A stretch of 64,000 nt of DNA, taken from NCBI GenBank assembly GCA_000634215.1, contig JFLX01000106.1, positions 1-64,000 of the forward strand, written 5' to 3'. The notes beneath the pieces are model-generated. The model saw nothing but the letters and a program-made list of their open reading frames with translations, searched no databases and was not told the DNA's origin. The translations under genes were made by a program, and so were the position numbers. This document shows positions 1,980 to 15,320 of the stretch, piece by piece; the first letter of the stretch is position 1; each line of letters starts with the position of its first letter. This DNA comes from Prochlorococcus sp. scB243_495L20 (GTDB taxonomy: Bacteria; Cyanobacteriota; Cyanobacteriia; PCC-6307; Cyanobiaceae).

Positions 1980-3665
1980 TTATTTTGGAGTTCCAAAGCG
2001 CCACACCAGACTAGCGTCAAAGGTATTGGCATCCAGACTCCCTTCTTTAGAAATCACTTTTCCTATACCCGTTTGAAGGCTTAAGTCTTCATTTAAATTG
2101 TATTCCAACCCGACACTAGGTTTGAACAATAGTGCGCTGCCGCTATCAACACCTCCTCCAGCTCCCGCACCAATTAGCATTTCGCCATAAAATTTCAAGT
2201 TCTTCCAACTCGGGCCAAGAATTCCTACCCCCCAGTGTCCCTCTGAATATCCGCCAGCCCCTCCTCCATACGCGCTTAAACCCTGTCCTGTAAGGTACCA
2301 CCAATCTCCTAACATCAAGTCAATTTTACCTCCCAAAAGTTGCATATCTCGTGAAGAACCTCCCTTTCGTTGAGCATCAAAATACCATTGGTGGGCTGGG
2401 CGGAAGCGCCATTTGATAGTTTTTATAAGATCTGTTTCCAATAAAGGTGCTCCTTTTAGATCCTGAGCAAAAGTTTCCATTACGTATGCCAAATTTAAGC
2501 CGAGATATGGGGTATCAAATTTGCCATCTGGAGCAGTGAGATAGCCGCCATCCATAATTAAACTTAGATCAGGAGAAAATCGGTATTCCAAGCCTAAATT
2601 TGCTCGAGCAACAAACCCTCCACCGGTCTCGACCGACCCGCCACCTGCGCCACCGATGGAAAGGGCTGGGAGAATGGCCATTTTATCGTCATTGGTTAGG
2701 GGGAGGCGATAGCCTATCCCGGCTAAAAGTTCGGCGTATCCGCCAACACCTCCTGATAGTGCGCCAGAAGTTTCAAAGGTAGTAAACCAATTATTATCAA
2801 TAAAGTAAGAGTACTCTACTCCGAATAACCCTAGTGAATTGTTAAGCGACCCACCAGAGGTAGTTTTGCTGCCGTTGGCCGGTGAATAGTTGCGAATGCG
2901 GGCGGCTATGTGAGATCTGTGGCGGCTCACATTACTCCAATCAACTCCGAAGTAATCATCCATAGTAAGTCCATCATCTTCCCACTTGAGTATCAGTGAA
3001 CTGAAGGGAATATCCAGTGAAAGCGCTATTGCATCGCTGGAAATATTTCCGTTTGGAAAGTCTACGTATGTATAATTCAGGCCAAATTGGCTCAATCCAA
3101 AGTCGTACTTTAGAGCGAAATGAGGGCGTAACATCAATCCTCCTCCTTGCGCCGCGGCACCCCCGCCTCCAGCACCTACATAGCTCCCTGCATCGAAAAT
3201 AAAGTTATTAAATAACTGACGTTCCAAACCTAAGGTATAGCCTCCAGTAAAGAAGCCACCACGTTGTCCAGTCGCAGCACCGTAAAGAGTAATACCCCCG
3301 TAAAACCAAGGGTTTAGTTTATCGTAAGCCCCAAGACTGTATAAACCCATTTGTTCGCCCACATCTGGCATATCAATTTCCTCAAAAGAAAACCTTAAAG
3401 TACGATTTCGCCAAGTTGAAGAATCTTTTTGAGCTTTGTTAAAATTCTTCTTTGATTTATTTTTTAAATTTGTTTTTTCAAAATAATTTTTATCGTCCTT
3501 ATATGTTTTCCAGATAATCTTTTTTAAAGGATTTTCCTTTTTTTTGCGAATTTCTTCCCACTTAATTGGATTAAATTCAGAAGAATCTTCTTTAACTTTT
3601 TCTGCAAATACTCCCAGAAAGTTTAAAAATTGAGCAATTATGAAAAAATAAAATACAAACCTCAT
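1980..3665 (-). CDS. Glycine-rich outer-membrane beta-barrel protein with three repeated modules
   Basis: 561 residues from the ATG at 3665 (MRFVFYFFIIAQFLNFLGVFA, a clear signal peptide ending before EKVKEDS); a second ATG four codons upstream is less likely. A charged linker of about 80 residues follows. Then come three similar modules (roughly 110-235, 285-400 and 440-561). Each has a glycine tract (GAGGGG, GGAGGGS, GAGAGGG), then a block ending in LxLEYxF or a close variant (LKYDF, LEYRFSPDLSL, LEYNLNEDLSL), then alternating beta-strands. The final residue set WRFGTPK resembles a barrel closing strand. Function unknown; an outer-membrane pore or surface protein is likely. GC content is clearly higher than in neighbouring genes, suggesting transfer. 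It lies between the decayed and intact tRNA-Pro copies. Confidence 0.7.
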   Translation of the reverse strand: MRFVFYFFIIAQFLNFLGVFAEKVKEDSSEFNPIKWEEIRKKKENPLKKIIWKTYKDDKNYFEKTNLKNKSKKNFNKAQKDSSTWRNRTLRFSFEEIDMPDVGEQMGLYSLGAYDKLNPWFYGGITLYGAATGQRGGFFTGGYTLGLERQLFNNFIFDAGSYVGAGGGGAAAQGGGLMLRPHFALKYDFGLSQFGLNYTYVDFPNGNISSDAIALSLDIPFSSLILKWEDDGLTMDDYFGVDWSNVSRHRSHIAARIRNYSPANGSKTTSGGSLNNSLGLFGVEYSYFIDNNWFTTFETSGALSGGVGGYAELLAGIGYRLPLTNDDKMAILPALSIGGAGGGSVETGGGFVARANLGLEYRFSPDLSLIMDGGYLTAPDGKFDTPYLGLNLAYVMETFAQDLKGAPLLETDLIKTIKWRFRPAHQWYFDAQRKGGSSRDMQLLGGKIDLMLGDWWYLTGQGLSAYGGGAGGYSEGHWGVGILGPSWKNLKFYGEMLIGAGAGGGVDSGSALLFKPSVGLEYNLNEDLSLQTGIGKVISKEGSLDANTFDASLVWRFGTPK

Positions 3666-3958
3666 TTCATAAATCACTTAAATTTTGATAAATTATTTTT
3701 CTTCAATAATACTCCTTATTAATAAATATAAAACATTTATTAAAAATTCAATCAATCAGATTAAATGTCATGAATAAAAATATGGGAATTCTTTCTTTAG
3801 GGGAGTTTGTTTTCTGAAGTTATAAATTATTTTCAAGCGTCAAAACATTCTTATATAAGGCTACAAAGCTCATTTCCAAGCCTCAAAAATGATTTTTTAT
3901 AAAAAATTTAGAGATTTAGTCTTTTATAGATGACTGTTATGAACTAATATCTTATGAG

Positions 3959-4032
3959 CGGGGCGTGGCGCAGCTTGGTAGCGCGGGTGCTTTGGGAGCA
4001 CTAGGTCGCAGGTTCGAATCCTGTCGCCCCGA
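3959..4032 (+). tRNA. tRNA-Pro (anticodon TGG)
   Basis: A complete cloverleaf: acceptor CGGGGCG pairs with CGCCCCG, D-stem GCGC/GCGC, anticodon stem GGTGC/GCACT with loop TTTGGGA (anticodon TGG), T-stem GCAGG/CCTGT around TTCGAAT, discriminator A. A CCA follows directly at 4033-4035, so the CCA end is encoded. It is followed by a terminator hairpin and is the integration target of the island: an exact copy of its 3' half recurs at 4945-4991. Confidence 0.96.
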
Positions 4033-4051
4033 CCATTTAAACCCAAGTTAT

Positions 4052-4126
4052 ACTAGCGAGTTTCCCAGACTCGTTTTTTTAATGCAAAATATGACCACTC
4101 GAAATGTGGTCAAATAGTGGTCAAAT
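4052..4126 (+). repeat. 75-bp direct repeat, copy 1 (tRNA-Pro terminator plus GTGGTC repeats)
   Basis: The block starts ACTAGCGAGT and ends GTGGTCAAAT. It contains the tRNA-Pro terminator hairpin (CGAGT at 4057-4061 with ACTCG at 4069-4073, then seven T) and a compact array: GACCAC, 7 bp, GTGGTC, AAATA, GTGGTC. It recurs with few changes at 4782-4856, so the gene at 4172-4786 is bracketed by direct repeats. Confidence 0.85.
4057..4080 (+). terminator. Terminator of tRNA-Pro
   Basis: Hairpin CGAGT-loop-ACTCG followed by seven T, starting about 20 bases after the CCA end. The same hairpin follows the 3'-half copy at 5014-5038. Confidence 0.75.
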
Positions 4127-4129
4127 TTG

Positions 4130-4150
4130 TTGACAGTCGATCTAAAATAA
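4130..4150 (+). promoter_or_regulatory. Island 21-bp promoter/operator element, copy 1
   Basis: TTGACAGTCGATCTAAAATA followed by A, ending 21 bases before the ATG at 4172. TAAAAT is in the place expected for a -10 box. The TTGACA is only 7 bp away, too close for a normal -35, so the conserved upstream half may be a regulator site. Five near-copies precede other island genes. Confidence 0.6.
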
Positions 4151-4171
4151 GCGTTATTATTTCCTTTTATT

Positions 4172-4786
4172 ATGAAAAGATTTTTAATACCTTTATTAGC
4201 TGCTCTCGCATTACCTACTCCTGTCAATGCTAATTATCTTTGCACAATCGACGAAGTTGTCTGGGGCAAAAGTAGAAAATTAAAAGAATATGAACAATTT
4301 AATATCATTGCATTTACTTCAACTAATAGGCTTGATGAGGATGGTGAAAAATTGAAGAAGGGTTTTATATACATCCTAGATGAAAATAAGAATAAATATA
4401 AATATAAAGGGGATTTGAATGATGATGATAGATTTTTCTATTCAAGAACTTATGAATATGAAAACAATCCCTTTGAAGTAATTTATGAGATTGGCGATTT
4501 TGATGGTTCAGGAGGAGAATTTAAAAGAACAGTAAAAAATTTAAAATTTAAACCAGGCAGTGATTTTTATGACGAAAAAACTGCCAAAGCTGTATTAAGT
4601 TATTCACCAGAATCGCGCACTGGATTAGTACATAAAGGAACATGTAAAAGACGCACGTATGATCTTGATAAAAAAATTTATTATTGGAGTGAGATTACAG
4701 GAAATGAATCAGAATCGGAATCAGATCTAGATCTTTTTAAAATGCTTGGAGAAGGATTACAAAAAACCGACTTGTTTAAAAACTAG
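4172..4786 (+). CDS. Secreted/periplasmic hypothetical protein
   Basis: A 204-residue protein with a textbook signal peptide (MKRFLIPLLAALALPTPVNA, cut before NYLC). The mature part is acidic and lysine-rich without membrane spans and has an aspartate-rich stretch near residues 85-90. Cysteines lie right after the cleavage site and near residue 154. Function unknown. The gene is a self-contained cassette: the 21-bp element drives it, 75-bp direct repeats flank it, and its stop codon (TAG at 4784-4786) is supplied by the second repeat. Confidence 0.75.
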   Translation: MKRFLIPLLAALALPTPVNANYLCTIDEVVWGKSRKLKEYEQFNIIAFTSTNRLDEDGEKLKKGFIYILDENKNKYKYKGDLNDDDRFFYSRTYEYENNPFEVIYEIGDFDGSGGEFKRTVKNLKFKPGSDFYDEKTAKAVLSYSPESRTGLVHKGTCKRRTYDLDKKIYYWSEITGNESESESDLDLFKMLGEGLQKTDLFKN

Positions 4787-4856
4787 CGAGTTCCCCAGAC
4801 GCGCTTTTTTATTACAAAATAAGACCACTCGAAATGTGGTCAAATAGTGGTCAAAT
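4782..4856 (+). repeat. 75-bp direct repeat, copy 2
   Basis: Near-identical to 4052-4126, including GACCAC, 7 bp, GTGGTC, AAATA, GTGGTC, AAAT. In this copy the hairpin has one mismatch (GCGAGT against ACGCGC) but keeps its T run. Confidence 0.85.
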
Positions 4857-4944
4857 GTTACTTAAATTGTCCGGACAAATCACGCAGAATTAAGCAAAAA
4901 ATTTGCTATAGCTCGAAAACCTAGTGCTGCACTAGAGCAAATAA

Positions 4945-4991
4945 GTGCTTTGGGAGCACTAGGTCGCAGGTTCGAATCCTGTCGCCCCGAC
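4945..4991 (+). repeat. Exact 47-bp 3'-half copy of tRNA-Pro (attachment-site scar)
   Basis: Identical to 3987-4033 of the intact gene, from the anticodon stem through the T-arm, acceptor 3' strand and discriminator. The 5' half is missing and the bases before it (GCAAATAA) are unrelated. A 3' half of a tRNA as a direct repeat is the usual att scar of an element integrated by a tyrosine recombinase. The sequence after it (CCAAGT..ATAGCGAGT) also matches the region downstream of the true tRNA. Confidence 0.88.
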
Positions 4992-5013
4992 TCTTAAAAA
5001 CCAAGTCAATATA

Positions 5014-5038
5014 GCGAGTTACCCAGACTCGCTTTTTT
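5014..5038 (+). terminator. Terminator after tRNA-Pro half copy
   Basis: GCGAGT (5014-5019) pairs with ACTCGC (5027-5032) and is followed by six T. It corresponds to the tRNA-Pro terminator at 4057-4080. Confidence 0.7.
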
Positions 5039-5125
5039 AATGGGAAAATTGACTTCAAAAAGTGATGTCGATTTAATCTCAAATTGAGATTTTTTTAAAA
5101 TTTCATTTCTCCAAAATTTATTTTT

Positions 5126-5146
5126 TTGAAAGTCGATCTACAATCA
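5126..5146 (+). promoter_or_regulatory. Island 21-bp element, copy 2
   Basis: TTGAAAGTCGATCTACAATC followed by A: three differences from copy 1, ending 23 bases before the ATG at 5170. Confidence 0.5.
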
Positions 5147-5169
5147 AGGGGCATTTATCTCTTTTTTTA

Positions 5170-5553
5170 ATGTCAAGTACTCAAGCCATAGAAAATTTAA
5201 TTAATGGTTATGCAACCAGTGAAGATTCTTCATTTCTAATACCGAATGCAACTAAAGATTTTTTGGCTGTAAGGCCAAGTGGAAATCCAATCTCTGCGCA
5301 GGGATTAGTGGGGATGTTTGATAGTAAAGACTTAGTTGCAGAATCCTCCGAATTAATCAAAACCCACAAAATTGAAATATACGGTGATATTGCATACGCT
5401 GTTTTCACTTTGAATGAAATCTTCAGCTATAAAGGAAATCAAAATATAGATCTTTCAACTTACACTTGCATATTCAAAAATGAAAACAGTACATGGAAAT
5501 ATGCCTGGATGCAAAGATCACAAGGAACTACTGATATGAAAACTTGGGAATAA
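5170..5553 (+). CDS. NTF2/SnoaL-like protein (DUF3804 type)
   Basis: A 127-residue cytoplasmic protein with the size and layout of the SnoaL/NTF2-like fold: N-terminal helix (STQAIENLINGYATSED), middle 'GLVGMF' segment, then strands IEIYGDIAYAVFTLNEIFSYKG and STWKYAWMQRS. It resembles the DUF3804 family known mainly from marine picocyanobacteria. No enzymatic residues can be assigned. It sits directly after the tRNA-Pro half copy and carries its own copy of the 21-bp element. Confidence 0.65.
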   Translation: MSSTQAIENLINGYATSEDSSFLIPNATKDFLAVRPSGNPISAQGLVGMFDSKDLVAESSELIKTHKIEIYGDIAYAVFTLNEIFSYKGNQNIDLSTYTCIFKNENSTWKYAWMQRSQGTTDMKTWE

Positions 5554-5958
5554 ATTAAACGCTTACTACTTGCACCGCAGGTAAATTAAGGCTTGGTTAT
5601 CCTGAATCAATAATCCATGAAGAAATACCTTTTTAATTAATGTTGCGACTTCTTCCGTTACCGATTTTTATTTGTATTTATCTTTGCTCTTGGTGGAGAT
5701 GTAAAAAAATATTATCGCCAGTGATAAGCAACTAAACTCTTGCATTGATTGGGCATATATAAAAAATTTACCTCTACCACCAAAACCTTCTTTTTTCGAG
5801 TTTTATATTGTTTATGTCTCTTCTTTTTTTTAATTTCCCTTTGGGTTAATTATTCAACAACTACCTTTTGCGAAGAAAGTAAGATACTACGAAAGAGAAA
5901 TGAAATTAATATTTGATAAATGGAATTTAGAAAAAATTAAAAAAAATAGTTAACTAAT
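5554..5958 (+). other. Gene-poor stretch with possible remnants of a membrane-protein gene
   Basis: About 400 bases without an intact gene. Short frames with protein character appear but are interrupted: a 31-codon frame from ATG 5640 (MLRLLPLPIFICIYLCSWW), and near 5840-5955 a frame reading IIQQLPFAKKVRYYEREMKL, ending in TAG/TAA. Runs of seven to nine T separate the frames. I read it as a decayed gene, with low certainty. Confidence 0.3.
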
Positions 5959-6072
5959 TTATTGATATGTCTGGAGTAAAGATATATAAATTCCTAATAA
6001 TACAAATATTGCCACACCTATTCCCATAACTGTAGTGGGTTGATTATTCCAAAAATTAGTTAAAAATTCCAT
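5959..6072 (-). CDS. 37-residue single-span membrane protein
   Basis: ATG at 6072 gives MEFLTNFWNNQPTTVMG, then a hydrophobic helix (IGVAIFVLLGIYISLL) and a short tail. It starts 12 bases after the stop of the 41-residue gene upstream on the same strand, so the two probably form an operon. No function recognised. Confidence 0.5.
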   Translation of the reverse strand: MEFLTNFWNNQPTTVMGIGVAIFVLLGIYISLLQTYQ

Positions 6073-6084
6073 TGATTGGGAAGT

Positions 6085-6210
6085 TTAAATTTTTTTAGCT
6101 CTATGAGCTCTACTCATAACTTTTCTCAAAATATTATTTTTAATTGATAAATCAGAAATAAAATAAAGAGTTAAAAACAAAACTAGTTTTGCAAAAAATG
6201 AGATTTGCAT
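6085..6210 (-). CDS. 41-residue small membrane protein
   Basis: ATG at 6210 gives MQISFFAKLVLFLTLYFISD followed by a very basic tail (KNNILRKVMSRAHRAKKI). One hydrophobic segment and a positively charged C-terminus suggest an inner-membrane anchored peptide. It precedes the 37-residue membrane protein in a two-gene minus-strand unit. Function unknown. Confidence 0.55.
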   Translation of the reverse strand: MQISFFAKLVLFLTLYFISDLSIKNNILRKVMSRAHRAKKI

Positions 6211-6399
6211 AATAAAAATAACTCTACAGTCATAAAAGCAAATTTCATTAAAATTGCCAATTTTTTAGAAGACCTTATAGGAGGTATTTTTATAGTTGAA
6301 TACGAAAGACTGAAAAAAAACAAATGCAACAAGATCAGCAGTCCTCGCGTTCGGAGAAGCTCCGGTTAGATATAAGATAGAGTTAGTGGAAAGAGACTT

Positions 6400-6549
6400 A
6401 TGAAGGAACTAGAAGAAAATACTATCGAACAAATAAGAACTCTTCTTAATTATTTAGAGCAAACAGATCTATTAAAAAACAAAGATATTCTTAAGTGTTT
6501 AGATGTAATAGCAAGAGAGTATGGCGGGGAAGTAGTTGACAAAAATTAA
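6400..6549 (+). CDS. 49-residue hypothetical protein
   Basis: ATG at 6400 follows GGAAAGAGA. The product (MKELEENTIEQIRTLLNYLE..., ending EYGGEVVDKN) is acidic and mostly helical. Its TAA is followed at once by the ATG of the next gene (6550), so the two are co-transcribed and translationally coupled. Function unknown. Confidence 0.6.
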   Translation: MKELEENTIEQIRTLLNYLEQTDLLKNKDILKCLDVIAREYGGEVVDKN

Positions 6550-6735
6550 ATGGCAAATCCAGATCAAAAAATAATATTGCTAGAACAAGCTTATGACGAA
6601 CTAAAGGCAATTTGCACCAAGTTCCAAAACGAATCTGGAGCTACAGATATGGAAGTAAAAACTTTACTTAGAGAACTTGCGAGGGTTTATGAAAAAGATA
6701 TTGATGACAACTATGACATAGATTGGGAAGTTTAA
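6550..6735 (+). CDS. 61-residue acidic helical protein
   Basis: MANPDQKIILLEQAYDELKA, then a cysteine-containing helix and an acidic C-terminus ending DIDWEV. Likely a small soluble helical protein. Second gene of a two-gene operon with zero spacing to 6400-6549. Its last four bases overlap the stop of a convergent small frame. A 17-base stretch of its 3' end (GATTGGGAAGTTTAAAT) recurs at 6073-6089. Confidence 0.6.
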   Translation: MANPDQKIILLEQAYDELKAICTKFQNESGATDMEVKTLLRELARVYEKDIDDNYDIDWEV

Positions 6736-6845
6736 ATAAGTTTATTTGATTTTCTTTTGCTATCAATTAATTGAGGCCAAACCTCATCAGCACACTCTAC
6801 GTTTGCTGCAAGACATAAATTGATTCTATATAGTTGCGAGTCGAT
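6732..6845 (-). CDS. Small conserved protein lacking a canonical start codon
   Basis: Between an upstream TAA and the TAA at 6734-6732 the frame reads (I)DSQLYRINLCLAANVECA, DEVWPQLIDSKRKSNKLI. It is clearly protein-like and resembles short picocyanobacterial proteins with a CxxA..C pattern. No ATG, GTG or TTG lies in frame; the natural start position is ATC at 6845. Either ATC is used, the start has mutated, or this is a recent pseudogene. Confidence 0.45.
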   Translation of the reverse strand: MDSQLYRINLCLAANVECADEVWPQLIDSKRKSNKLI

Positions 6846-6889
6846 TTAATAACCCTTTAAGTAGTTGGAATTTCTGGAAGGGTTTCTTG

Positions 6890-7045
6890 TTACTGATATT
6901 TATTTAGTAAACGGTTATAAATTACCAACAATACCATTAACCCAGCTATTCCATAAATTGCACGGAATGGATCGTGATGACTCTGCCAAAGCTCCTTTAA
7001 AAATTCCTTCAATACTTCATAGCCAATGCCCAATGAGAATAGCAC
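6890..7045 (-). CDS. Small membrane protein with non-ATG start
   Basis: From GTG 7045 the frame reads VLFSLGIGYEVLKEFLKELW, then QSHHDPFRAIYG, a hydrophobic helix (IAGLMVLLVIYNRLL) and NKYQ. It could start at ATC a few codons further upstream (RKILWVLF...), since the frame stays open to TAG near 7061. Two hydrophobic segments flank a histidine-containing loop. Function unknown. Confidence 0.45.
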   Translation of the reverse strand: MLFSLGIGYEVLKEFLKELWQSHHDPFRAIYGIAGLMVLLVIYNRLLNKYQ

Positions 7046-7119
7046 CCATAAGATTTTTCTCTAATTAATTTGCATAATTTCTTACAACTGGTAATTTTAG
7101 TGGGCTTCAATAAATTCAA

Positions 7120-7344
7120 ATGCAAGATCAAAAAATTGAAAAGATAGCAGCTTTTGCAGTAAACATAACTAAGGTGCTGGTAATAATCTATCTAGGCTTC
7201 GCAGAAGTATTCAAAATTGGCAAATTACTTATAGAGAATTTAAAAACTGAATTTGATATTTCTCGAAAATGGGCTTCACAAAATTATTCAATTCTAAAAA
7301 AACGACTAGCGGAAGGAAAAATAGCGGGTTTTATAGAAAATTAG
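7120..7344 (+). CDS. 74-residue hypothetical membrane-associated protein
   Basis: MQDQKIEKIAAF, then a hydrophobic stretch (NITKVLVIIYLGFAEVF) and a basic, aromatic tail (SRKWASQNYSILKKRLAEGK). One likely membrane span. It is convergent with the gene at 7357-7620, with 12 bases between. Function unknown. Confidence 0.55.
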   Translation: MQDQKIEKIAAFAVNITKVLVIIYLGFAEVFKIGKLLIENLKTEFDISRKWASQNYSILKKRLAEGKIAGFIEN

Positions 7345-7356
7345 TAAGCGTTATAT

Positions 7357-7620
7357 TTACGCAACAAGTTTGATTGTATATACAACATCCTTACAATTAT
7401 TTTTTTTATCCCATTCCTTTGCGAAAGGAGATTGCATCTCTGCACCTAATTTTTCTAAGTCGGTACAGTTCATTAATAAATGAGATTTGTGTTCATTCAC
7501 TTTTACAAACTCGTAATCAGTTACAAACTCTTTGCACATTTCTTCAAGAAATAGTGTCGTTACATCATTTTTAAATTCTTCAAATTTACAGCTAAAAGTT
7601 GAGATGATGAGAGTGTTCAC
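7357..7620 (-). CDS. DUF3764-like small protein
   Basis: 87 residues from GTG at 7620. The pattern of N-terminal strand (TLIISTFSCKFEEF), central helix and C-terminal SPFAKEWDKKNNCKDVVYTI resembles the DUF3764 family (dimeric alpha-beta barrel type) of picocyanobacteria; this is a tentative match. The start lies directly after a hairpin with a T run (7621-7650), and the island 21-bp element is just beyond it. Confidence 0.5.
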   Translation of the reverse strand: MNTLIISTFSCKFEEFKNDVTTLFLEEMCKEFVTDYEFVKVNEHKSHLLMNCTDLEKLGAEMQSPFAKEWDKKNNCKDVVYTIKLVA

Positions 7621-7650
7621 TAAAAAAAGGGGCTAATTGCCCCTTATTTT
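7621..7650 (-). terminator. Hairpin with T run between DUF3303 gene and the next start
   Basis: GGGGC (7630-7634 region) pairs with GCCCC around TAATT. On the minus strand it is followed by seven T and then, one base later, the GTG of the next gene. It can terminate the DUF3303 gene upstream, but it lies downstream of the 21-bp element, so a transcript from that element would pass through it (attenuator-like). Confidence 0.55.
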
Positions 7651-7664
7651 AGATCGACTGTCAA
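7644..7664 (-). promoter_or_regulatory. Island 21-bp element, copy 3
   Basis: On the minus strand it is identical over all 21 bases to copy 1 (TTGACAGTCGATCTAAAATA plus A). It ends 23 bases before the GTG at 7620. Confidence 0.6.
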
Positions 7665-7671
7665 TCTTTAT

Positions 7672-7944
7672 CTATGAGTAGACTTTGGCAACTATTGGAC
7701 CAGCTTCTTCATCAGTAAATACTGGTGTGGTTTCCCAATTGAGAAATTCACCCCATTCAGCGGCATGTTGATATATTGCTTTTGGATCATCAGTCTTTAA
7801 AACTATCCAACCCTCTAAAGAACCGGGTGCATGATATCTTCCAATCATTTCAACTCCAGGATAATCTCCCCCACCACCAAGAAATTTTTCTGCACCTTTT
7901 TGATGATATCCGGCCTTAAATGACCAATGCTGAACATAAAGCAT
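7672..7944 (-). CDS. DUF3303 family protein
   Basis: 90 residues: MLYVQHWSFKAGYHQKGAEK, glycine tract (GGGGDYPG), GRYHAPGSLEGWIVLKTDDP, AAEWGEFLNWETTPVFTDEE. This is the layout of DUF3303 / YciI-like alpha-beta barrel proteins, cytoplasmic and of unknown role. Two relatives are close by: an intact one at 11977-12288 and a broken one at 8148-8432. Confidence 0.7.
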   Translation of the reverse strand: MLYVQHWSFKAGYHQKGAEKFLGGGGDYPGVEMIGRYHAPGSLEGWIVLKTDDPKAIYQHAAEWGEFLNWETTPVFTDEEAGPIVAKVYS

Positions 7945-8147
7945 TTTATTTTTTAATTTTTATTGGCTTTCTATTACTAGCAAAAAAAATAATTACTGAA
8001 AATAAATTGTTTTAATTGCCCATTTTTGAAGATCCATTAGTGAAACCATTAATTGAGAGTCCAGTTTAAATTTAAGATTCAACTGTTATTTCAAACTACT
8101 TTTTATTAAAATTCAAACTAAAACAATAGGAAATTAGCACCTTTTTT

Positions 8148-8432
8148 ATGCTGTTTCTAATTTCTTATAAATTCAATGATGCAAACGCTCAAGAAAAGGG
8201 ATCCAAAATGTTAAAAGAATGGTACGACAAAGGAGGGCCACAAAATAGACCAGAGGGTTATGACGTTAAATCTTGGATTTTCTTACCTCAACATGGCAAT
8301 GGTTACTCTGTTGTAGATGCTGATTCTTAAGAAACTATCTGGAAACAGTGGAGTCCTTGGAGAGAATTATTGGAATTCACTATTGAACCTTGTGCGGATT
8401 TAGATCAAACAGTAGCTCTATATTGTAAATGA
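8148..8432 (+). pseudogene. DUF3303-like gene interrupted by an in-frame TAA
   Basis: ATG 8148 opens MLFLISYKFNDANAQEKGSK and reaches TAA at 8328-8330 after ...GYSVVDADS. The same frame continues without shift as ETIWKQWSPWRELLEFTIEP, CADLDQTVALYCK, TGA at 8430-8432. The second half is clearly the family's C-terminal part (W-x-x-W-x-x-W and ..EFTIEPC). One base change would restore a 94-residue protein. Most likely a recent nonsense mutation. Confidence 0.65.
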
Positions 8433-8554
8433 AACACTTTTTACTTGCTTTAAAAATATAAGACTTAGCTTTTATGCAGCGATTCAAAAAAAATGCTTAT
8501 TTAACCTATTTAGCCTTTTTATTTTTTAATATATGGGAAATAAAACTCTTAATA

Positions 8555-8809
8555 ATGAATAAATTTAAAGATAACTTTTCAAGTGAAAGCTTTTACCCAG
8601 ATAGTAATTATTATCTTGACCAAGATAATGCTCCTAAAGAGGTCCCAATTAAAGAAGATCAAAAATCCAATATAGGGAGAAGTTTTGAATGGCCAAATAC
8701 CTATTGGTTCATTGCTGAAAGAACAAATGGAAGGCTTGCAATGATAGGTTTCATGGCTGTCATTATTAACTATGCCTTGTTTGGATGGATAGCCTATCCC
8801 ATCCTTTAA
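8555..8809 (+). CDS. hli: High-light-inducible (Hli/LHC-like) protein
   Basis: 84 residues from ATG 8555 (MNKFKDNFSSESF); an ATG 27 codons upstream would add an unlikely hydrophobic head. The C-terminus has the Hli signature: AERTNGRLAMIGFMAVIINY (ExxNGRxAMxGF, chlorophyll-binding helix) and LFGWIAYPIL. Hli proteins are single-span thylakoid proteins that bind chlorophyll/carotenoid and protect photosystem assembly under high light. This one is the longer-N-terminus type with a polar 45-residue head. Island hli genes like this are common in Prochlorococcus and its phages. Confidence 0.88.
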   Translation: MNKFKDNFSSESFYPDSNYYLDQDNAPKEVPIKEDQKSNIGRSFEWPNTYWFIAERTNGRLAMIGFMAVIINYALFGWIAYPIL

Positions 8810-8953
8810 TTTAGTTAGTAAGTCTAATTTTACAAAAATTGATTTAGATAAATCTGGAACACATTGGCTTCAACATTCTGCGTTTTTGTAACTGTATTTG
8901 CTATCTATTTTGACCAATTAACTTAAGCTCCAATTATTGTTATTGCCTTTTGA

Positions 8954-9676
8954 TTATTCATATGTTTTTGAGGAGTTTTCCAGTAATCTATTTAATTCTA
9001 AGAGTTCTTCTTTAGTAAGTTCTCTATATTTTCCTGTTGGCACATCTAACTTAATATTCATAATTCTTACACGCTTTAATGATCGTACTCTATATCCTAA
9101 GGCCTCACACATTCTTCTAATCTGACGGTTAAGTCCTTGTGTAAGTATTATTTTAAAATTTCTTGGACCCAATTGTTTTACGAAACAATTTTTAGTTATT
9201 GTGTCTAATATTTCAACTCCATTACTCATACTTTGAATAAAGTCGCTATTGATAGGACGATTAACTTTTACAATATATTCTTTTTCATGATTATTTCTTG
9301 CTCTGAGTATTTTATTTACGATATCTCCATCATTAGTTAAGAAAATCAATCCCTCACTGAGTTTATCTAATCTTCCGATGGGGAAAATTCTTTTAGGATA
9401 TTTAATGAAATCTATTACATTATTGGGTTCTACTTTTCTATCTGTTGTGCAAACAATTCCTACAGGTTTATTAAAGGCTAAGTATATGTTTTTTTGTCTC
9501 TTTGATTTTTGTATTCTTTGACCTTTAACTTCAACTTGGTCACTATCTTCTACTCTAGTTCCAATTTCTGGAATTTTGCCATTAATGGTTACCTTTCCTT
9601 CTAGGATTAATCTATCTGCTTCTCTTCTAGAACAATAACCGACTTCACTTAAATATTTATTTATTCTGGTAGCCAT
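8954..9676 (-). CDS. rluF: 23S rRNA pseudouridine synthase, RluF-like
   Basis: 240 residues from ATG 9676 (MATRINKYLSEVGYCSRREA); the longer frame from 9748 would overlap the 21-bp element and is rejected. An S4 RNA-binding domain covers residues 1-60. The catalytic motif is GRLDKLSEGLIFLTNDG (101-117; nucleophile Asp104), and GLNRQIRRMCEALGYRV starts at residue 181. HEKEYIVKVNRPI and LTQGLNRQIRRMCE closely follow RluF (YjbC), which modifies 23S U2604, rather than cyanobacterial RsuA/RluB. It is probably horizontally acquired. It carries its own copy of the 21-bp element. Confidence 0.82.
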   Translation of the reverse strand: MATRINKYLSEVGYCSRREADRLILEGKVTINGKIPEIGTRVEDSDQVEVKGQRIQKSKRQKNIYLAFNKPVGIVCTTDRKVEPNNVIDFIKYPKRIFPIGRLDKLSEGLIFLTNDGDIVNKILRARNNHEKEYIVKVNRPINSDFIQSMSNGVEILDTITKNCFVKQLGPRNFKIILTQGLNRQIRRMCEALGYRVRSLKRVRIMNIKLDVPTGKYRELTKEELLELNRLLENSSKTYE

Positions 9677-9727
9677 TTTGGATGTTTTATTTTTATCTGC
9701 AATAAAAAATAATTTACTAATCTCCTT

Positions 9728-9748
9728 ATATTTTAGATCGGGTGTCAA
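9728..9748 (-). promoter_or_regulatory. Island 21-bp element, copy 4
   Basis: TTGACACCCGATCTAAAATA plus T on the minus strand, ending 51 bases before the rluF-like ATG at 9676. The 5' TTGACA and GATCTAAAATA are kept; the middle three bases differ. Confidence 0.55.
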
Positions 9749-9825
9749 TTTTAGTTAATATTCTCATTATTGAATTTCAGATTATTTTCATCAGTAATTT
9801 ATACGCACAGATCTAACTCCATTTT

Positions 9826-10071
9826 TTAATTCCATTTTCTTTCAATTTTCCTCCATCCCTTAGAAAGTAATCTTTTATAAATTTCTCTAGCTAAATCTAT
9901 TTCAACAGAAACTGTATTTGTCATTACTGGTGGTTTGTTTCCTAATCCCCCAACTATTTTTCCAGTATCTATAAACATATATTCAAAAACTCCATCAACA
10001 CTCTTGTCGTTTTTCATAAATCTTTTAACTTCTGAACTATTTGAATTAATCAACCAATAAGATTTAGCCAT
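9826..10071 (-). CDS. DUF1651-like small protein
   Basis: 81 residues: MAKSYWLINSNSSEVKRFMK ... GGLGNKPPVMTNTVSVEID, LAREIYKRLLSKGWRKIERKW. The C-terminal 'AR..Y..LL..GW' helix matches the small picocyanobacterial family DUF1651. It starts 32 bases after the SRAP gene stops, on the same strand, so it is probably its operon partner. A broken relative is at 12581-12832. Function unknown. Confidence 0.6.
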   Translation of the reverse strand: MAKSYWLINSNSSEVKRFMKNDKSVDGVFEYMFIDTGKIVGGLGNKPPVMTNTVSVEIDLAREIYKRLLSKGWRKIERKWN

Positions 10072-10103
10072 TAATCTAACATTGGAATTAGTAAGCGTTC
10101 CAT

Positions 10104-10742
10104 TTAAAACAAACTCATTTGATCAGTATCTTTTTTCTTTACATCCTCTACTAGCCAACCATCAGGGGAGCAACTCATCATGATTGCAAATAATCCTCTT
10201 AATTCATCTGCATCTTTAACTTGCTCTGTCCATTGTTCCTCATATCCGTTAGGAACAATCACAGGCATGCGGTGATGTAAAGGTTTAATTAAATCATTTG
10301 GTTCAGTTGTTAAAACGCAGCAACTCTCAAGTTCTGCGCCATCTGGTGAAGTCCACTTACTCCAAATTCCGCCCAACCAAAAAGTCTCATAATTCGATTT
10401 TCGAACACGATATTTTTTTTCAAAAAAACCGCTTGCAGGTATTAGGCACCTTTTATGTTTCCAACTTCCACTAAATAATTTTTTTTCTTCTACAGTTTCT
10501 GATCTTGCATTAAATGGTCTTGGTCTCTCTTTATCAAATGGGTCTCTGGCCCAAGGAGAAATAAAGCCCCATGTCATAAAAGTAGTTTTAATTCTTCCTT
10601 CGTTTTTAATTACAAGAACAGGATCATTAGGTCTTATTAGACTTTGAGTTTCATATTTAGCATCAAGTCCATTTGGATAGTCTTGTTTCAAAACCTTTGG
10701 CAAATTCTCAAATTTAGTTTTCAACTCAAATCTTCCGCACAT
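10104..10742 (-). CDS. yedK: SOS response-associated peptidase (SRAP / YedK / HMCES-like)
   Basis: 212 residues, the normal SRAP length. SRAP proteins crosslink through Cys2 to abasic sites in single-stranded DNA and shield them. Present here: Cys2 (MCGRFELKT), WGFISPWARDP (58-68), Asn78 in RPFNARSET, Glu108 in PASGFFEKK, and His156/157 in LHHRMPVIV. All the expected active-site residues are kept. It acts on the nucleoid in DNA damage tolerance. It is preceded by the 21-bp island element and followed by a DUF1651-like gene. Confidence 0.9.
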   Translation of the reverse strand: MCGRFELKTKFENLPKVLKQDYPNGLDAKYETQSLIRPNDPVLVIKNEGRIKTTFMTWGFISPWARDPFDKERPRPFNARSETVEEKKLFSGSWKHKRCLIPASGFFEKKYRVRKSNYETFWLGGIWSKWTSPDGAELESCCVLTTEPNDLIKPLHHRMPVIVPNGYEEQWTEQVKDADELRGLFAIMMSCSPDGWLVEDVKKKDTDQMSLF

Positions 10743-10792
10743 TGATTTTTAAAATATTTTTAAAACTCACTTAAAAAAACAGTAAATTTACC

Positions 10793-10813
10793 TTATTTTA
10801 GATCTACTTTTAA
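10793..10813 (-). promoter_or_regulatory. Island 21-bp element, copy 5
   Basis: TTAAAAGTAGATCTAAAATA plus A on the minus strand, ending 50 bases before the SRAP ATG. The GATCTAAAATAA half is exact; the TTGACA half is degraded to TTAAAA. Confidence 0.5.
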
Positions 10814-10931
10814 TTTTCTCAAATAAAAAAAATTTTTTGATCGTAGAAATTTTTTTATCCAAATAATTAAAAGAAAATATAGATATTGAAAAGCTTCCTC
10901 AAATTTAATTTGAATGATTCAAAATTAAGAA

Positions 10932-11078
10932 ATGACAGATCCTATTCTTTATTTATCTATGTTTTTGGGACTTGGAGGAGTTTATGTATTAATCTCTTCC
11001 TTCCATGATGATGACGATGGTGATGATGATGGAGAAAAATATATTTATAATCTCGAACATGCTAATTTAGCAAGATAG
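10932..11078 (+). CDS. 48-residue membrane protein with Asp-rich tract
   Basis: ATG 10932 gives MTDPILYLSMFLGLGGVYVL (one hydrophobic span), then ISSFHDDDDGDDDGEKYIYN and a short tail. Single-span protein with a strikingly acidic loop that could bind cations; a conserved type among picocyanobacteria. Function unknown. Confidence 0.6.
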   Translation: MTDPILYLSMFLGLGGVYVLISSFHDDDDGDDDGEKYIYNLEHANLAR

Positions 11079-11323
11079 TTGATTTGTTTATAAAACATTA
11101 TCTTGAAAAAGTTTTTTGCAAAAACAAAATACCATTAAAAACATTTTTATAGGAGTAACGAAAATATTGTTTTCTATGCTAAATCTAACTTGTAATTATA
11201 TTTATTTTTAAATTAGATTGTTGGTCCTCTATCCGTATATGTTTGTGCATTAAACCGTACATTTATATTAGTCGATTGATAAGCATGCCTAGTTAGAACT
11301 TAGTGGTAACTAAGATAAATTAA
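11079..11323. other. Intergenic, no gene seen
   Basis: AT-rich stretch with only very short frames. It presumably carries the promoter for the 11324-11685 gene pair. Confidence 0.3.
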
Positions 11324-11509
11324 ATGCCTTCAACACCAATAAAATCTTGTAATAAATATGTGTTGAGTTACAAAGATTCAACAAATAAGACACATGAAGT
11401 TGGCTTCTACGCGCGCGATGCATACGATTGCCTAATGCTTGCGAGAGAATTCAACACTTACGTACATGATAATCCAGGATCTGTAATCAGAATCCAACAA
11501 AAATTTTGA
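11324..11509 (+). CDS. 61-residue conserved hypothetical protein
   Basis: MPSTPIKSCNKYVLSYKDST, then a segment with EVGFYARDAYDCLMLAREFN and NPGSVIRIQQKF. Looks like a small alpha/beta domain: strand, helix with ARDAYDC, strand. Conserved type in marine picocyanobacteria. It is followed 11 bases later by a 54-residue gene and is probably co-transcribed with it. Confidence 0.65.
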   Translation: MPSTPIKSCNKYVLSYKDSTNKTHEVGFYARDAYDCLMLAREFNTYVHDNPGSVIRIQQKF

Positions 11510-11520
11510 GGAAATTAATT

Positions 11521-11685
11521 ATGAATTTAAAAAGATCACCATTCGCAATTCAAGATAAAAATGCAAGAGATCTTGATCATGAAAAAGATTATCCAACAAT
11601 TGCAGATTTAATGAGAGAACAGAAAGTTCCGCAAGATTATGCAAACCCAGTTCACCATCGTAGAGATTTAGACTCTCTGGGTTAG
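11521..11685 (+). CDS. 54-residue hypothetical protein
   Basis: ATG 11521 with GAGGAAA eight bases upstream. MNLKRSPFAIQDKNARDLDH, then EKDYPTIADLMREQKVPQDY and a histidine-containing end (NPVHHRRDLDSLG). Soluble, charged. Second gene of a pair with 11324-11509. Function unknown. Confidence 0.6.
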   Translation: MNLKRSPFAIQDKNARDLDHEKDYPTIADLMREQKVPQDYANPVHHRRDLDSLG

Positions 11686-11752
11686 TTTACGAGTATGGCT
11701 ATTTACTAATTTTTAAAATTAACGATCATTATGAATGCCATTTATGATTCAT

Positions 11753-11920
11753 TCAAAAAATAATATTTTCTTCCTCAAGTTTTTTTTTAAGTTCTATAGG
11801 CATATATGCAATATCCTTCTTTATTGCATTAATAGCATCTCTATACTTTTCAGGTTCAGCTAAAAGCATTTTTATTAAATTGTATTGACTTTCTATTTCT
11901 TCAGAAGAAAATTTTTCCAT
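11753..11920 (-). CDS. 55-residue helical hypothetical protein
   Basis: ATG 11920 gives MEKFSSEEIESQYNLIKMLL, AEPEKYRDAINAIKKDIAYM, PIELKKKLEEENIIF, stop at 11755-11753. Entirely helical and charged. The 21-bp island element lies 19 bases upstream, which supports it as a real gene. Function unknown. Confidence 0.6.
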   Translation of the reverse strand: MEKFSSEEIESQYNLIKMLLAEPEKYRDAINAIKKDIAYMPIELKKKLEEENIIF

Positions 11921-11939
11921 AAGTATAGGTCTTACCTTT

Positions 11940-11960
11940 TTATTTTAGATCAAAAGTCAA
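11940..11960 (-). promoter_or_regulatory. Island 21-bp element, copy 6
   Basis: TTGACTTTTGATCTAAAATA plus A on the minus strand, ending 19 bases before the ATG at 11920. TTGAC and GATCTAAAATAA are exact. Confidence 0.55.
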
Positions 11961-11976
11961 TTACTAAAAAAAATTG

Positions 11977-12288
11977 TTAGTTAGAGGCTGCTTCAATTTC
12001 TTTATGGACTGAAAGAAATTCTTTATCAGTTAGAACTGGTGTAACTTCAATTTCTACGCCAAAATTATCGACCCAGATACTACTCCATTTCCAAATATTC
12101 TGATGGTTTGAAGATTCAACTATTGCCCAACCATTAGCTCCCTCAGGATTTACTACTCGATTAAGAACTTTAAACCCATCAAATTCATCACCTTCGCATC
12201 CTCCTTCAACAAAACCCGCAAAAGCTTCAGCCCCTTGCATATGACTTTCTTGATCTGGAAATTGCCAGTGTACGATGTAAGTTTGCAT
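11977..12288 (-). CDS. DUF3303-like protein
   Basis: 103 residues: MQTYIVHWQFPDQESHMQGA, GFVEGGCEGDEFDGFKVLNR, NPEGANGWAIVESSNHQNIW, WVDNFGVEIEVTPVLTDKEF. Same layout as 7672-7944 (N-terminal VHW strand, GWAIVES strand, VTPVLTD C-terminus). Likely a dimeric alpha-beta barrel protein of unknown role. It has no copy of the 21-bp element. Confidence 0.65.
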   Translation of the reverse strand: MQTYIVHWQFPDQESHMQGAEAFAGFVEGGCEGDEFDGFKVLNRVVNPEGANGWAIVESSNHQNIWKWSSIWVDNFGVEIEVTPVLTDKEFLSVHKEIEAASN

Positions 12289-12394
12289 GAATAAAATTAT
12301 TTTTTTAATTATTAATTATCAAATTTAAAAATTAAATAAAAAGTCTTTAAACACTAATTAAAAACTCATTAACCCAAGTGCAAGAAAACAAAAA

Positions 12395-12580
12395 AAAAGA
12401 CTCTTACGAGCCTAGGTGATGGGGACTCCTATAATGACAAATTAAACAGAAACAAACAACCCCATCAATAGGTAATTTTAAATACTTACAAACACCATAT
12501 GTAGTGCTAAGATTTTAAAAAGGCTGGGTGATGGGGATTATCCCGCTTTTTGATTGGGGCGAAGCTAACGCCCTTTTTTT
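12395..12580 (+). ncRNA. Candidate small RNA ending in a strong terminator
   Basis: No coding frame. The motif GGTGATGGGGA occurs twice (12415-12425 and 12530-12540 regions), the second time in CTGGGTGATGGGGATTATCCC, which folds on itself (GGGATTATCCC). It is followed by GGGGCGAAGCTAACGCCC and seven T at about 12556-12580. Repeated motif, two hairpins and a terminator suggest a structured transcript; it could also just be the terminator of an unseen unit. Confidence 0.35.
12556..12580 (+). terminator. Intrinsic terminator abutting the next gene
   Basis: GGGCG-AAGCTAA-CGCCC hairpin followed by seven T. The ATG of the broken DUF1651-like gene begins at the very next base (12581). Confidence 0.7.
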
Positions 12581-12832
12581 ATGGAAAAATATACTTTAAT
12601 CAATAAAGCCAGATCGAGGATTAAAGTATTTGAACCTTTTGAAGATAGTTCTAAGAACTCTTATATGGTTAATAATGCAATTTTAATCTCTTATGGTTGA
12701 GTTTTTAAGCGATCAAGTAGGCCAGTTATGAAAGGCTCTAGGGTTGAATCTATCGAAGAAGCGAGAAACGAATATAAAAAACTTTTAGAGCAAGGGTGGG
12801 GAAAAACTTATAGATTCAATAGTTTTTTTTAA
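12581..12832 (+). pseudogene. DUF1651-like gene with in-frame TGA
   Basis: ATG 12581 reads MEKYTLINKARSRIKVFEPF ... NAILISYG, then TGA at 12698-12700. The frame continues unshifted as VFKRSSRPVMKGSRVESIEE, ARNEYKKLLEQGWGKTYRFN, SFF, TAA. The second half aligns with the C-terminus of 9826-10071 (AREIYKRLLSKGW against ARNEYKKLLEQGW), so the stop interrupts one gene. A TGG-to-TGA change (Trp) would explain it. Confidence 0.6.
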
Positions 12833-12916
12833 AAAAATGGTGAATAGGTACTTTACCTAAAATTTGACATTATTAAAAATTAATTGCTAGATAAGCTTCA
12901 GGATGGAAGATTGAAC

Positions 12917-13084
12917 ATGAAAAATGAAATTTATTCAAATATTAAAGATTCAGATGCTTTGGAAAGTTTTTTTGAATGTATAACTTCTTGTAGCATCAAT
13001 AGTGAGGGAGTAGATTGCACAACAGCATGTTATGTAAAACATTTAGAACCAAACAATATCGATTACCCTTTAAAATTTTCATAA
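12917..13084 (+). CDS. Small protein with paired CxxxC motifs
   Basis: 55 residues from ATG 12917 (MKNEIYSNIKDSDALESFFE); an ATG 11 codons upstream is less likely. CITSC and CTTAC lie about 13 residues apart, in a helix-turn-helix with four cysteines resembling a CHCH-like hairpin that could form two disulfides or bind metal. It ends NNIDYPLKF. Function unknown. Confidence 0.6.
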   Translation: MKNEIYSNIKDSDALESFFECITSCSINSEGVDCTTACYVKHLEPNNIDYPLKFS

Positions 13085-13117
13085 GCAAAGCCCATTGATA
13101 ATTGTTATATTTCATTA

Positions 13118-13231
13118 ATGTTATTCCCACCTCCTCAAGTTATTTTTGGTCTATTGCTTTTATCTATAGCAGTAGTTCTCATCTGAGATATTAGATACAA
13201 CCTTTTTGGAGAAGACGAAGACGGAATTTAA
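13118..13231 (+). pseudogene. Small membrane-protein gene with in-frame TGA
   Basis: ATG 13118 reads MLFPPPQVIFGLLLLSIAVV LI, then TGA (13184-13186). In the same frame it continues DIRYNLFGEDEDGI, TAA. A related 33-residue protein at 53427-53528 (MVLPSPQIAIGLLLISIGIV, then TFDIKID) shows that the segment after the stop is part of the protein and that the stop sits at an aromatic position. Probably a TGG (Trp) turned TGA. Confidence 0.55.
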
Positions 13232-13234
13232 TCT

Positions 13235-13351
13235 TCAACTAGGAAGCTGATTTGTAGGTGGCGCGTGAAATTGCCGTTTCTTTCTTTTGAGTCTTTTGTA
13301 AGCGACTAAAGAGCCTAATAATAACAATGTAATAGCTATTGAGTTAATCAT
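13235..13351 (-). CDS. 38-residue membrane-anchored basic protein
   Basis: ATG 13351 gives MINSIAITLLLLGSLVAYKR, then LKRKKRQFHAPPTNQLPS. One N-terminal membrane helix and a basic tail on the cytoplasmic side. Function unknown. Convergent with the broken gene at 13118-13231. Confidence 0.55.
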   Translation of the reverse strand: MINSIAITLLLLGSLVAYKRLKRKKRQFHAPPTNQLPS

Positions 13352-13529
13352 ATCAAGTGGTTTTATATATATAAAAACAAATATGTTCTAAATATCAATG
13401 ACTAAAGTTATTTTTTCAAAAGGCTATTAATTATGGACTAATTTTTAATATTTAGCTTTTTCATTAGGTACCTAAAACAACCAAGTGAGAATGCTTATCT
13501 GACCAAAAGCAATTGCCATGCAATAAAAA

Positions 13530-13634
13530 TCACTTTTTCTTATTTCTCATTTGATATTGAAGAACAGCTTTTAGGTGTTGAACTTCTTTTTCTAAAGTCT
13601 CAATTCTTTTTTCTAGTTCTTCATTAGTTGCCAT
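13530..13634 (-). CDS. 34-residue coiled-coil peptide
   Basis: ATG 13634 gives MATNEELEKRIETLEKEVQH, then LKAVLQYQMRNKKK. A clean heptad pattern (L/I at a and d: LEKRIETLEKEVQHLKAVL) predicts a coiled coil that would oligomerise. Function unknown. Confidence 0.55.
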   Translation of the reverse strand: MATNEELEKRIETLEKEVQHLKAVLQYQMRNKKK

Positions 13635-13779
13635 ATTTTTTAAAGATAAATTCCTTGATATTTATACTATTAAAAAAGTGACTTGTTACCCATGACAAAT
13701 GTCAATTAAGTATTAGAGCCTATTGATGGGCATAATTTCTCTAGATAAAATATGCAGAGTATAAATTTAGGGGGAATTT

Positions 13780-13923
13780 ATGAGTGGAGATTATGAGACG
13801 CTAGAAATCAATCAGCCTAAAATTAGATATTTTCAGAAAAGATCCGAAAATAATACAGAATGGTTAGATCAATTAATCAACCAAATTGAAGATATGAAAA
13901 ACAACATATCCAAATCTGCTTAA
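13780..13923 (+). CDS. 47-residue protein, first gene of a metal/thiol-type operon
   Basis: ATG 13780 after a strong purine-rich site (TTAGGGGGAATTT). MSGDYETLEINQPKIRYFQK, charged middle, EDMKNNISKSA. Its TAA shares a base with the next ATG (TAATG). The chain of overlapping or abutting genes from here to 15803 makes it the likely leader of one operon. Function unknown. Confidence 0.6.
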   Translation: MSGDYETLEINQPKIRYFQKRSENNTEWLDQLINQIEDMKNNISKSA

Positions 13924-14039
13924 TGAAAGAAAAAGATTTAAAGGAATTAGAGGAATTTGCAAAAGAAAATGGATACAATGAAGAGCTAAAAGACATATAT
14001 TTAAGGGAAGTCATTGACAGAAATAAAGAATACGAATGA
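13923..14039 (+). CDS. 38-residue acidic helical peptide
   Basis: MKEKDLKELEEFAKENGYNE, then ELKDIYLREVIDRNKEYE. Entirely helical. It overlaps the next gene by ATGA (14036-14039), so translation is coupled. Function unknown. Confidence 0.55.
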   Translation: MKEKDLKELEEFAKENGYNEELKDIYLREVIDRNKEYE

Positions 14040-14266
14040 GATCAAATTTTCGACCAAATATTCGACTAGCTACAAATATTCTTTTAGTTATTGGTACTTT
14101 TGCTATTGCTTTAAAGATTGCTCCAATAGCAATGGTATATCAGGAAAAAAATTTATGTATTAAATATTTAAAACATCAAATAGATCGAGACAAACTTATC
14201 AAAAGACTAAAAATAGTTAAACAAGCAAATCCATCTAGTATTTGTGACTCTATCCTTAAAAGTTAA
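14036..14266 (+). CDS. 76-residue membrane-anchored protein with two cysteines
   Basis: MRSNFRPNIRLATNILLVIG then a hydrophobic continuation (TFAIALKIAPIAMV), so one N-terminal membrane span. The outside domain has NLCIKYLKH and SSICDSILKS (two Cys). Coupled to the gene before and followed two bases later by the MauE/DoxX-like gene. Function unknown; the context suggests a periplasmic redox or metal role. Confidence 0.6.
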   Translation: MRSNFRPNIRLATNILLVIGTFAIALKIAPIAMVYQEKNLCIKYLKHQIDRDKLIKRLKIVKQANPSSICDSILKS

Positions 14267-14268
14267 AA

Positions 14269-14721: not shown

Positions 14722-14780
14722 CACTTTTACAAATTTTCATTTATTGTTAATTAAAAAAGAATCTAATCGTCTTAATTTCT

Positions 14781-15299: not shown

Positions 15300-15320
15300 T
15301 ACAAATACTTATTTGAAATA

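Follow-up and report, generated by a model that had tools for sequence, protein, structure and literature searches.

A short intergenic module with promoter- and terminator-like features as a candidate crossover joint of Prochlorococcus island genes

The window analysed here, 64,000 nucleotides of the forward strand of contig JFLX01000106.1 (Prochlorococcus sp. scB243_495L20, assembly GCA_000634215.1), holds a genomic island edged by a tRNA-Pro(tgg) gene (3959..4035, + strand) and, ahead of six unrelated genes, copies of one short element, the subject of this report. The 20-mer TTGACAGTCGATCTAAAATA had exactly six matches at ≤3 mismatches across the window, against a mean of 0.03 and a maximum of 1 in 100 shuffles. 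A preliminary description of this DNA had placed six copies of a 21-base repeat at just these positions, and its distances from repeat to start codon were reproduced as well (21, 23, 23, 51, 50 and 19 bases for copies 1 to 6). A scan of the whole genome (1.57 Mb, 143 contigs) gave 14 copies at ≤3 mismatches, six in the window and eight on five other contigs, with 1 for the reversed control; the 15-base core was matched without mismatch at nine places. A chance origin of the repeat was ruled out by the window shuffles and by reversed controls in this genome and in genomes of the genus.

Copy 1 (4130..4171, + strand; 20-mer 4130-4149, 0 mismatches) has the exact core and no clear hairpin; the core lies 27 nt from the start codon of an open reading frame (ORF) for a secreted protein (4172-4786), and tRNA-Pro ends 94 bp before the copy. 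Copy 2 (5126..5169, + strand; 20-mer 5126-5145, 3 mismatches) has a weak hairpin and a T-run and is followed by a DUF3804 (NTF2-like) gene starting at 5170. Copy 3 (7621..7664, − strand; 20-mer 7645-7664, 0 mismatches) combines the exact core with a perfect hairpin, GGGGCAATTAGCCCC, and a T-run; the GTG start of an 87-amino-acid (aa) ORF is at 7620, and a DUF3303 gene (7672-7944) stops 7 nt before the copy. Copies 4 (9729..9748, − strand, 2 mismatches) and 5 (10794..10813, − strand, 3 mismatches) are without hairpins and precede near-core genes, the former an RluF-like pseudouridine synthase gene with its ATG ~52 nt on, the latter an SRAP gene with its ATG at 10742. Copy 6 (11941..11960, − strand, 3 mismatches), which has no T-run, is preceded by a DUF3303 gene (11977-12288) and lies upstream of a 55-aa ORF (ATG at 11920) whose protein forms a 7-member cargo family elsewhere. 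In an Rfam scan of window positions 1-16000 only the tRNA and the small RNA Yfr13 (RF02364, 101 bits; 6773-6870, inside the same island) reached the cut-offs, and neither overlaps any copy; a known RNA family was thereby ruled out as the identity of the element in that range.

The element extends across the genus. The genus core, TTGACAGTCGATCTA, was found exactly in 256 of 266 Prochlorococcus genomes (reversed control, 0), and TTGACAGTCGATCTANNNT at ≤1 mismatch in all 81 sampled genomes of the genus vs 11 of 219 from other genera, 8 of these 11 falling in one genus. With the centre of the core left free, ten genomes gave 98 matches vs 2 control matches. Among genomes lacking the exact core are G026, G089, G144 and G170 (G and L numbers denote genomes and loci), the last three of which carry one-mismatch copies; the one-mismatch sample did not include G026. 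An exact-core scan of GTDB species genomes returned at least 119 stretches, and among the matches listed 110 were from Prochlorococcus, three from Synechococcaceae cyanobacterium and six from other bacteria. The core sequence was not found in the literature searched, and those parts of the literature on Prochlorococcus island repeats, promoters, integrons, tycheposons, RNAs and transcripts that were available gave no account of the element.

Aligned copies revealed a module of ~45 bp, consisting in order of (often) a stop codon, the core, which is a near-perfect dyad, a TANNNT box, a terminator-like hairpin, a T-run and, in most cases 27-29 nt past the core, a start codon. A typical copy reads TGA-TTGACAGTCGATC-TAAAAT-AAGGGGCAATTAGCTCC-TTTTTTT-ATG; another form ends in TAACAT-AGAGGGATAAAACCCTC-TTTTTTT-ATG. 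The 15-bp dyad GATTGACAGTCGATC has a central A and one broken pair, and its perfect form, GATTGACAGTCAATC, occurs at one SRAP ortholog (L364). In 166 non-redundant exact copies, the flanking positions A-1, G-2 and T-3 were conserved at 94%, 67% and 72%, positions 16-18 were variable and T19 was 97% conserved, followed by G-rich, A/T, C-rich and T-run positions; TA at positions 14-15 is invariant in this set by selection of exact cores. A G+C-rich hairpin followed by a T-run, as in intrinsic terminators, was present in 184 of 300 copies and absent from 116, vs 5 of 300 shuffled-base controls, and came in 94 versions. An ORF of ≥50 aa began 10-70 nt past the core at 61% of 261 copies (16-21% of random places), with a sharp peak at 27-29 nt, and a stop codon lay ≤60 nt upstream or within the core at 47% (7-11% of random places). 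Adjacent copies ≤3 kb apart agreed in orientation in 108 of 113 cases, compared with 65% for adjacent ORFs. A short, hairpin-bearing sequence in many copies might be a small mobile repeat of the REP or MITE kind that inserts between genes, but the copies stand in register with start codons and the hairpin is variable and gene-linked (see below), and we give this origin hardly any credence.

Loci from other organisms (L141, L186, L187 and L191) were excluded before counting. Two more, L198 (Ahrensia) and L214 (SAR324), were wrongly kept; each contributes ≤1 copy to the anatomy, flank (184-copy), triplet, near-copy, hairpin, cargo, direct-repeat and orientation sets, and neither contributes to the breakpoint densities or the 24-genome pair counts given below. 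A number of named loci duplicate DNA from G genomes (e.g., L143, L299); exact duplicates were removed throughout and near-duplicates in the non-redundant sets only.

The preliminary description had taken the repeat for a shared cis element aimed at the start codons of unrelated genes. This was supported, and the module has a TANNNT box, a −10-type hexamer, at a fixed place. What did not stand was its restriction to island genes: among 31 sampled genomes of the genus the RluF-like gene was present in 31 and the SRAP gene in 28, so that two of the six genes are near-core. The upstream regions of their orthologs were compared over 16 positions. For the RluF-like gene, 15 of 29 regions had ≤4 mismatches and the other 14 had 6-7; for SRAP, 16 of 27 had ≤4, five had 5 and six had 7-8; in both sets the site lay at a similar distance to the gene. 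Roughly half of the orthologs have TTGACA-n4-ATCTAAAAT in front of them. Upstream of the RluF-like genes, TTGACA and ATCTAAAAT are kept while the middle bases vary, and in the SRAP set it is mostly the TCTAAAAT half that is kept; a hairpin was not seen in most of these regions. A cis-regulatory sequence passed on together with its gene would look like this, which is expected of a promoter, and a regulator could bind the dyad that precedes TANNNT, in line with the earlier guess.

Several features had escaped the preliminary description: the hairpin, the common placement of the element directly behind a stop codon, its occurrence across the genus and the gathering of homology breakpoints at it. 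These breakpoints were counted in 67 island loci (1.02 Mb) as the free ends of pairwise homology, 3933 in all. Intervals at exact cores, 1.04% of the sequence, held 375 of them, a 9.1-fold enrichment; by the same measure, ORFs without the element reached 3.0 at their stops and 1.35 at their starts, intergenic sequence without it 1.72 and coding sequence 0.25. Homology thus ends at the shared sequence more than elsewhere (9.1-fold vs 3.0-fold at other gene ends), as it should at the joint of a mosaic. Among 184 copies, 168 pairs shared only the left flank, 194 only the right and 198 both. Because many loci come from single-cell genomes, in which joining artefacts occur, the pair counts were redone on 24 genomes listed as 99-100% complete, with inter-genome pairs only and with 6 of 60 fetched loci excluded (L259, L265, L299, L300, L305, L306); the pattern held (left 77, right 45, both 16). 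One left flank, a gene ending in ...RKLINY and a stop, was joined to seven different right flanks in seven copies, the switch occurring directly past the core. It could be argued, in line with the preliminary description, that the element is the promoter/operator of a coordinated regulon and nothing else; the breakpoints would then arise not from crossovers but because incoming genes that bring a working promoter are favoured by selection. The promoter-type evidence accords with this, as does the 3-fold enrichment of breakpoints at element-free gene ends; yet enrichment at the element is three times that at other gene ends, and in several independent genomes left flanks are identical up to the core and right flanks diverge directly after it. 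We regard such an explanation as quite improbable.

Small gene units were also present in one locus and absent from another, their joints falling precisely on the core. These units measured 351 bp (L170 vs L224), 349 bp (L231 vs L224), 303 bp (L270 vs L209), 560 bp (L199 vs L298), 347 bp (L154 vs L172) and 322 bp (L076 vs L279). Of 18 such presence/absence triplets, ten were distinct; six of these were judged clean and four doubtful (L130, a second L199 case, L282 and L302). The 32 bases past the core of the merged site were nearer to the distal copy in 12 of the 18 triplets, to the proximal copy in 3 and tied in 3, whereas the 20 bases before the core resembled the proximal copy more closely in 16 triplets and the distal copy in one, with one tie. 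Hairpin identity was 0.86 for 190 pairs of copies with the same gene and different left flanks, 0.66 for 122 pairs with the opposite arrangement and 0.63 for unrelated pairs; the hairpin sequence goes with the downstream gene, with exceptions given below. Another element followed within 150 bp of only 36 of 209 ORFs, and the element therefore belongs first to the gene after it. The module might instead serve above all the gene before it, as a 3′ terminator or an element for mRNA stability, as the frequent stop codon directly upstream and the terminator-like hairpins could suggest. Against this, the hairpin is linked to the downstream gene, the start-codon distance is sharper than the stop-codon distance, copy 1 is preceded by a tRNA rather than an ORF, and the vertically kept RluF-like and SRAP sites mostly have no hairpin; we consider this role very unlikely.

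On balance, we lean towards reading the element as an intergenic promoter/terminator punctuation module of Prochlorococcus that doubles as a crossover joint of island genes. Its position, conservation, hairpins, breakpoints and hairpin-gene linkage can be read from the aligned DNA; promoter activity, a regulator and terminator activity we infer from them. TTGACAGTCGATC-TANNNT would act as a promoter, with a −10 box and a dyadic regulator site directly upstream of it, driving the next gene, whose start codon lies 27-29 nt past the core in most cassette-type copies. The hairpin and T-run, between the −10 box and the start codon, would serve as an intrinsic terminator for the preceding gene. The ~45-bp module, which many island genes carry in one common orientation, gives DNA that is unrelated elsewhere a stretch of sequence in common, and crossovers at the core would allow genes or gene blocks to be gained, lost and swapped, its own hairpin travelling with each gene. 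We favour general or short-homology recombination over a dedicated enzyme for these crossovers because no enzyme was found and because the site is also vertically kept and promoter-like.

Several observations weigh against this reading. No −35 hexamer was found 16-18 bp upstream of the −10 box, a region without strong conservation; in the consensus TTGACA lies only 7 bp from TANNNT and is therefore no normal −35. The site is lacking at about half of the RluF-like and SRAP orthologs, whose counts stand without a shuffled control. At 22% of the 261 copies there is neither neighbouring ORF, and 125 of 337 copies lack an ORF of 35 aa where one would be expected. Within the window, a hairpin is visible at copies 2 and 3 alone, and the linkage of hairpin to gene does not hold everywhere, with <0.7 identity in 22 of the 190 same-gene pairs. 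Across 104 near-copies, changes were most frequent at positions C5, G7, C9 and G10 inside the dyad (24-26 each), and T1, T2 and A4 changed once each; GC-to-AT bias would account for most of this, yet the pattern does not speak for a dyad that is strictly required.

The same joints could be the work of a site-specific gene-cassette system, in which an enzyme would read the 15-bp dyad and insert or remove one-gene cassettes in the manner of integrons, each with its own promoter and hairpin. The joints do fall on the core, as in the left flank with seven partners; units of ~300-560 bp are precisely present or absent, with six clean examples among ten distinct triplets; and the arrays are unidirectional, with a core less variable than the hairpin. 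A specific enzyme, however, was not found in a search that covered the families PF00589 and PF00239, each with a single match in our genome (389 aa for PF00589). Across the genus sample PF00589 matches occurred in 86 and PF00239 matches in 83 of 87 genomes, including core proteins also present in genomes without the exact core. The 389-aa PF00589 protein is in 150 of 151 genomes of the family, far beyond the range of the element, and scored 37.8 bits against the NCBIfam XerA/integron integrase model (cut-off, 220 bits); an integrase could be encoded elsewhere. Active resolvases carry YxRVS and DRxxR motifs. The PF00239 resolvase-type protein (L311, 1327-1950) has YARAT and DRAFK instead and is therefore probably no active recombinase; it may be a catalytically dead DNA-binding protein. 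The scarcity of ORFs followed by a second element and the inheritance of the site at near-core genes without cassette structure also argue against cassettes, and we judge this system unlikely, if less so than the other alternatives. Were it real, Prochlorococcus would have a dedicated cassette system that is no integron, with an enzyme acting on GATTGACAGTCGATC to shuffle single small genes, each with promoter and terminator, such that an inserted gene would be insulated and expressed at once.

The genes carried by the punctuation module that we favour are diverse. An ORF of ≥35 aa stood in the expected place at 212 of 337 copies, and these ORFs fell into 69 families with no nameable common theme. 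Domains recognized were DUF3764, DUF1330 and DUF1651 among ten proteins scanned, and DUF3804, RluF-like and SRAP in the window. A stub reading ATGAAACGCTTACTACTTGCA or a close variant, which resembles the start of a signal-peptide gene, recurs, often directly upstream of a copy (window 5553-5590; L050 at ~37, L061 at ~1847, L069 at ~1515).

At the tRNA edge, an 11-bp direct repeat (GTGGTCAAATA GTGGTCAAAT; 4106..4126, + strand) lies directly upstream of copy 1. Such repeats occurred ≤60 nt upstream of 33 of 300 copies vs 27 of 1500 random places, while periods of 8-10 and 12-14 gave 0-6 of 300; their sequence varies between copy groups and their period is constant (e.g., L051 at 4130, L060 at 1501, L127 at 7211, L131 at 419), so that they might be arm sites of different integrases. 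A tRNA end predicted by aragorn lay ≤250 bp upstream, in either orientation, at 15 of 300 copies. The 3′ half of tRNA-Pro and its flank are duplicated over 141 nt (3987-4127 and 4945-5085, 79% identity, 958 bp apart), and the segment 3987-5085 is a one-gene integrated element (gene 4172-4786) bounded by this duplication and without an integrase. Tycheposons have a tRNA edge with a duplicated tRNA 3′ part and an integrase of their own, and the tRNA-edged islands of Prochlorococcus tycheposons are of the same kind as this one. The duplicated edge belongs to the 958-bp unit and not to the repeat element; as to an integrase of its own, the only PF00589 match in the genome is the 389-aa core protein.

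Phages were considered as a vehicle for the cassettes. An exact-core scan of IMG/VR gave 33 contigs, of which only L085, L101 and L104 had the hairpin module by eye; two hairpin scans of viral contigs returned L085, L101 and a coding chance match, L523, and a looser viral scan gave no further module among the matches listed. L101 and L104 carry T4-like phage genes beside Prochlorococcus-like island DNA (97-98% identity over the best pieces). In L101 the join falls within 17 bases common to a host gene (L529) and the start of phage uvsX, and a chimeric contig is therefore likely. L104, which has a T4-like phoH gene, switches to island DNA exactly at the core (548-566), but no second contig repeats this join, so that real capture and chimera are indistinguishable. 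Two cassette proteins had no match among 50,697 phage records, and the 51-nt module gave only partial matches, in phages of other hosts. With one join probably chimeric and the other unrepeated, phages were not used as evidence.

The module has partial parallels in known systems. Phage morons are genes with their own promoter and terminator inserted between other genes, and the likeness lies in an autonomous gene with a promoter-like sequence before it and terminator-like hairpins at its borders; unlike morons, all units here have one common sequence, shared as a joint, and the module was not found in named phage records. With the gene cassettes of integrons (attC arrays) the element shares unidirectional arrays of small promiscuous genes and a short common border site. 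An attC site, however, is a long imperfect inverted repeat with a GTTRRRY-type core, whereas our consensus has a 15-bp dyad and a terminator hairpin and no such core; moreover, an integron integrase was not found, most genes are not flanked on both sides, and each gene has its own promoter-like sequence. Within Prochlorococcus itself, Coleman et al. (2006) reportedly described a 48-bp element repeated in the islands of MED4 and MIT9312. Its length fits our module, with which it may be identical; if so, the repeat was known, and its anatomy and role as a joint would be what is new. Mosaic phage genomes have short conserved boundary sequences at module borders, proposed as places of homologous recombination (PMC3029335), and the likeness is a short shared sequence between unrelated modules; our element differs in being chromosomal, promoter- and terminator-featured and genus-wide. 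Cluster K mycobacteriophages carry the SAS/ESAS, a conserved 13-bp repeat at the translation starts of a subset of unrelated genes, some with inverted repeats (PMC3203893); sequence and organism differ, and SAS sits at the ribosome-binding position, not as a −10. Halovirus HF2, an archaeal virus, likewise has intergenic repeats, which reporter assays showed to be promoters, with no recombination role described for them in the parts of the source consulted (PMC8707807).

Few photosynthetic organisms are as abundant as Prochlorococcus, and the differences between its strains lie largely in hypervariable islands. A single genus-wide joint with the look of a promoter and a terminator would account for the exchange of unrelated genes, singly or a few at a time, without loss of expression or insulation in a genome that has little spare DNA. 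The module would mark genes that were exchanged recently and offer reporter and recombination assays a defined sequence to work with.

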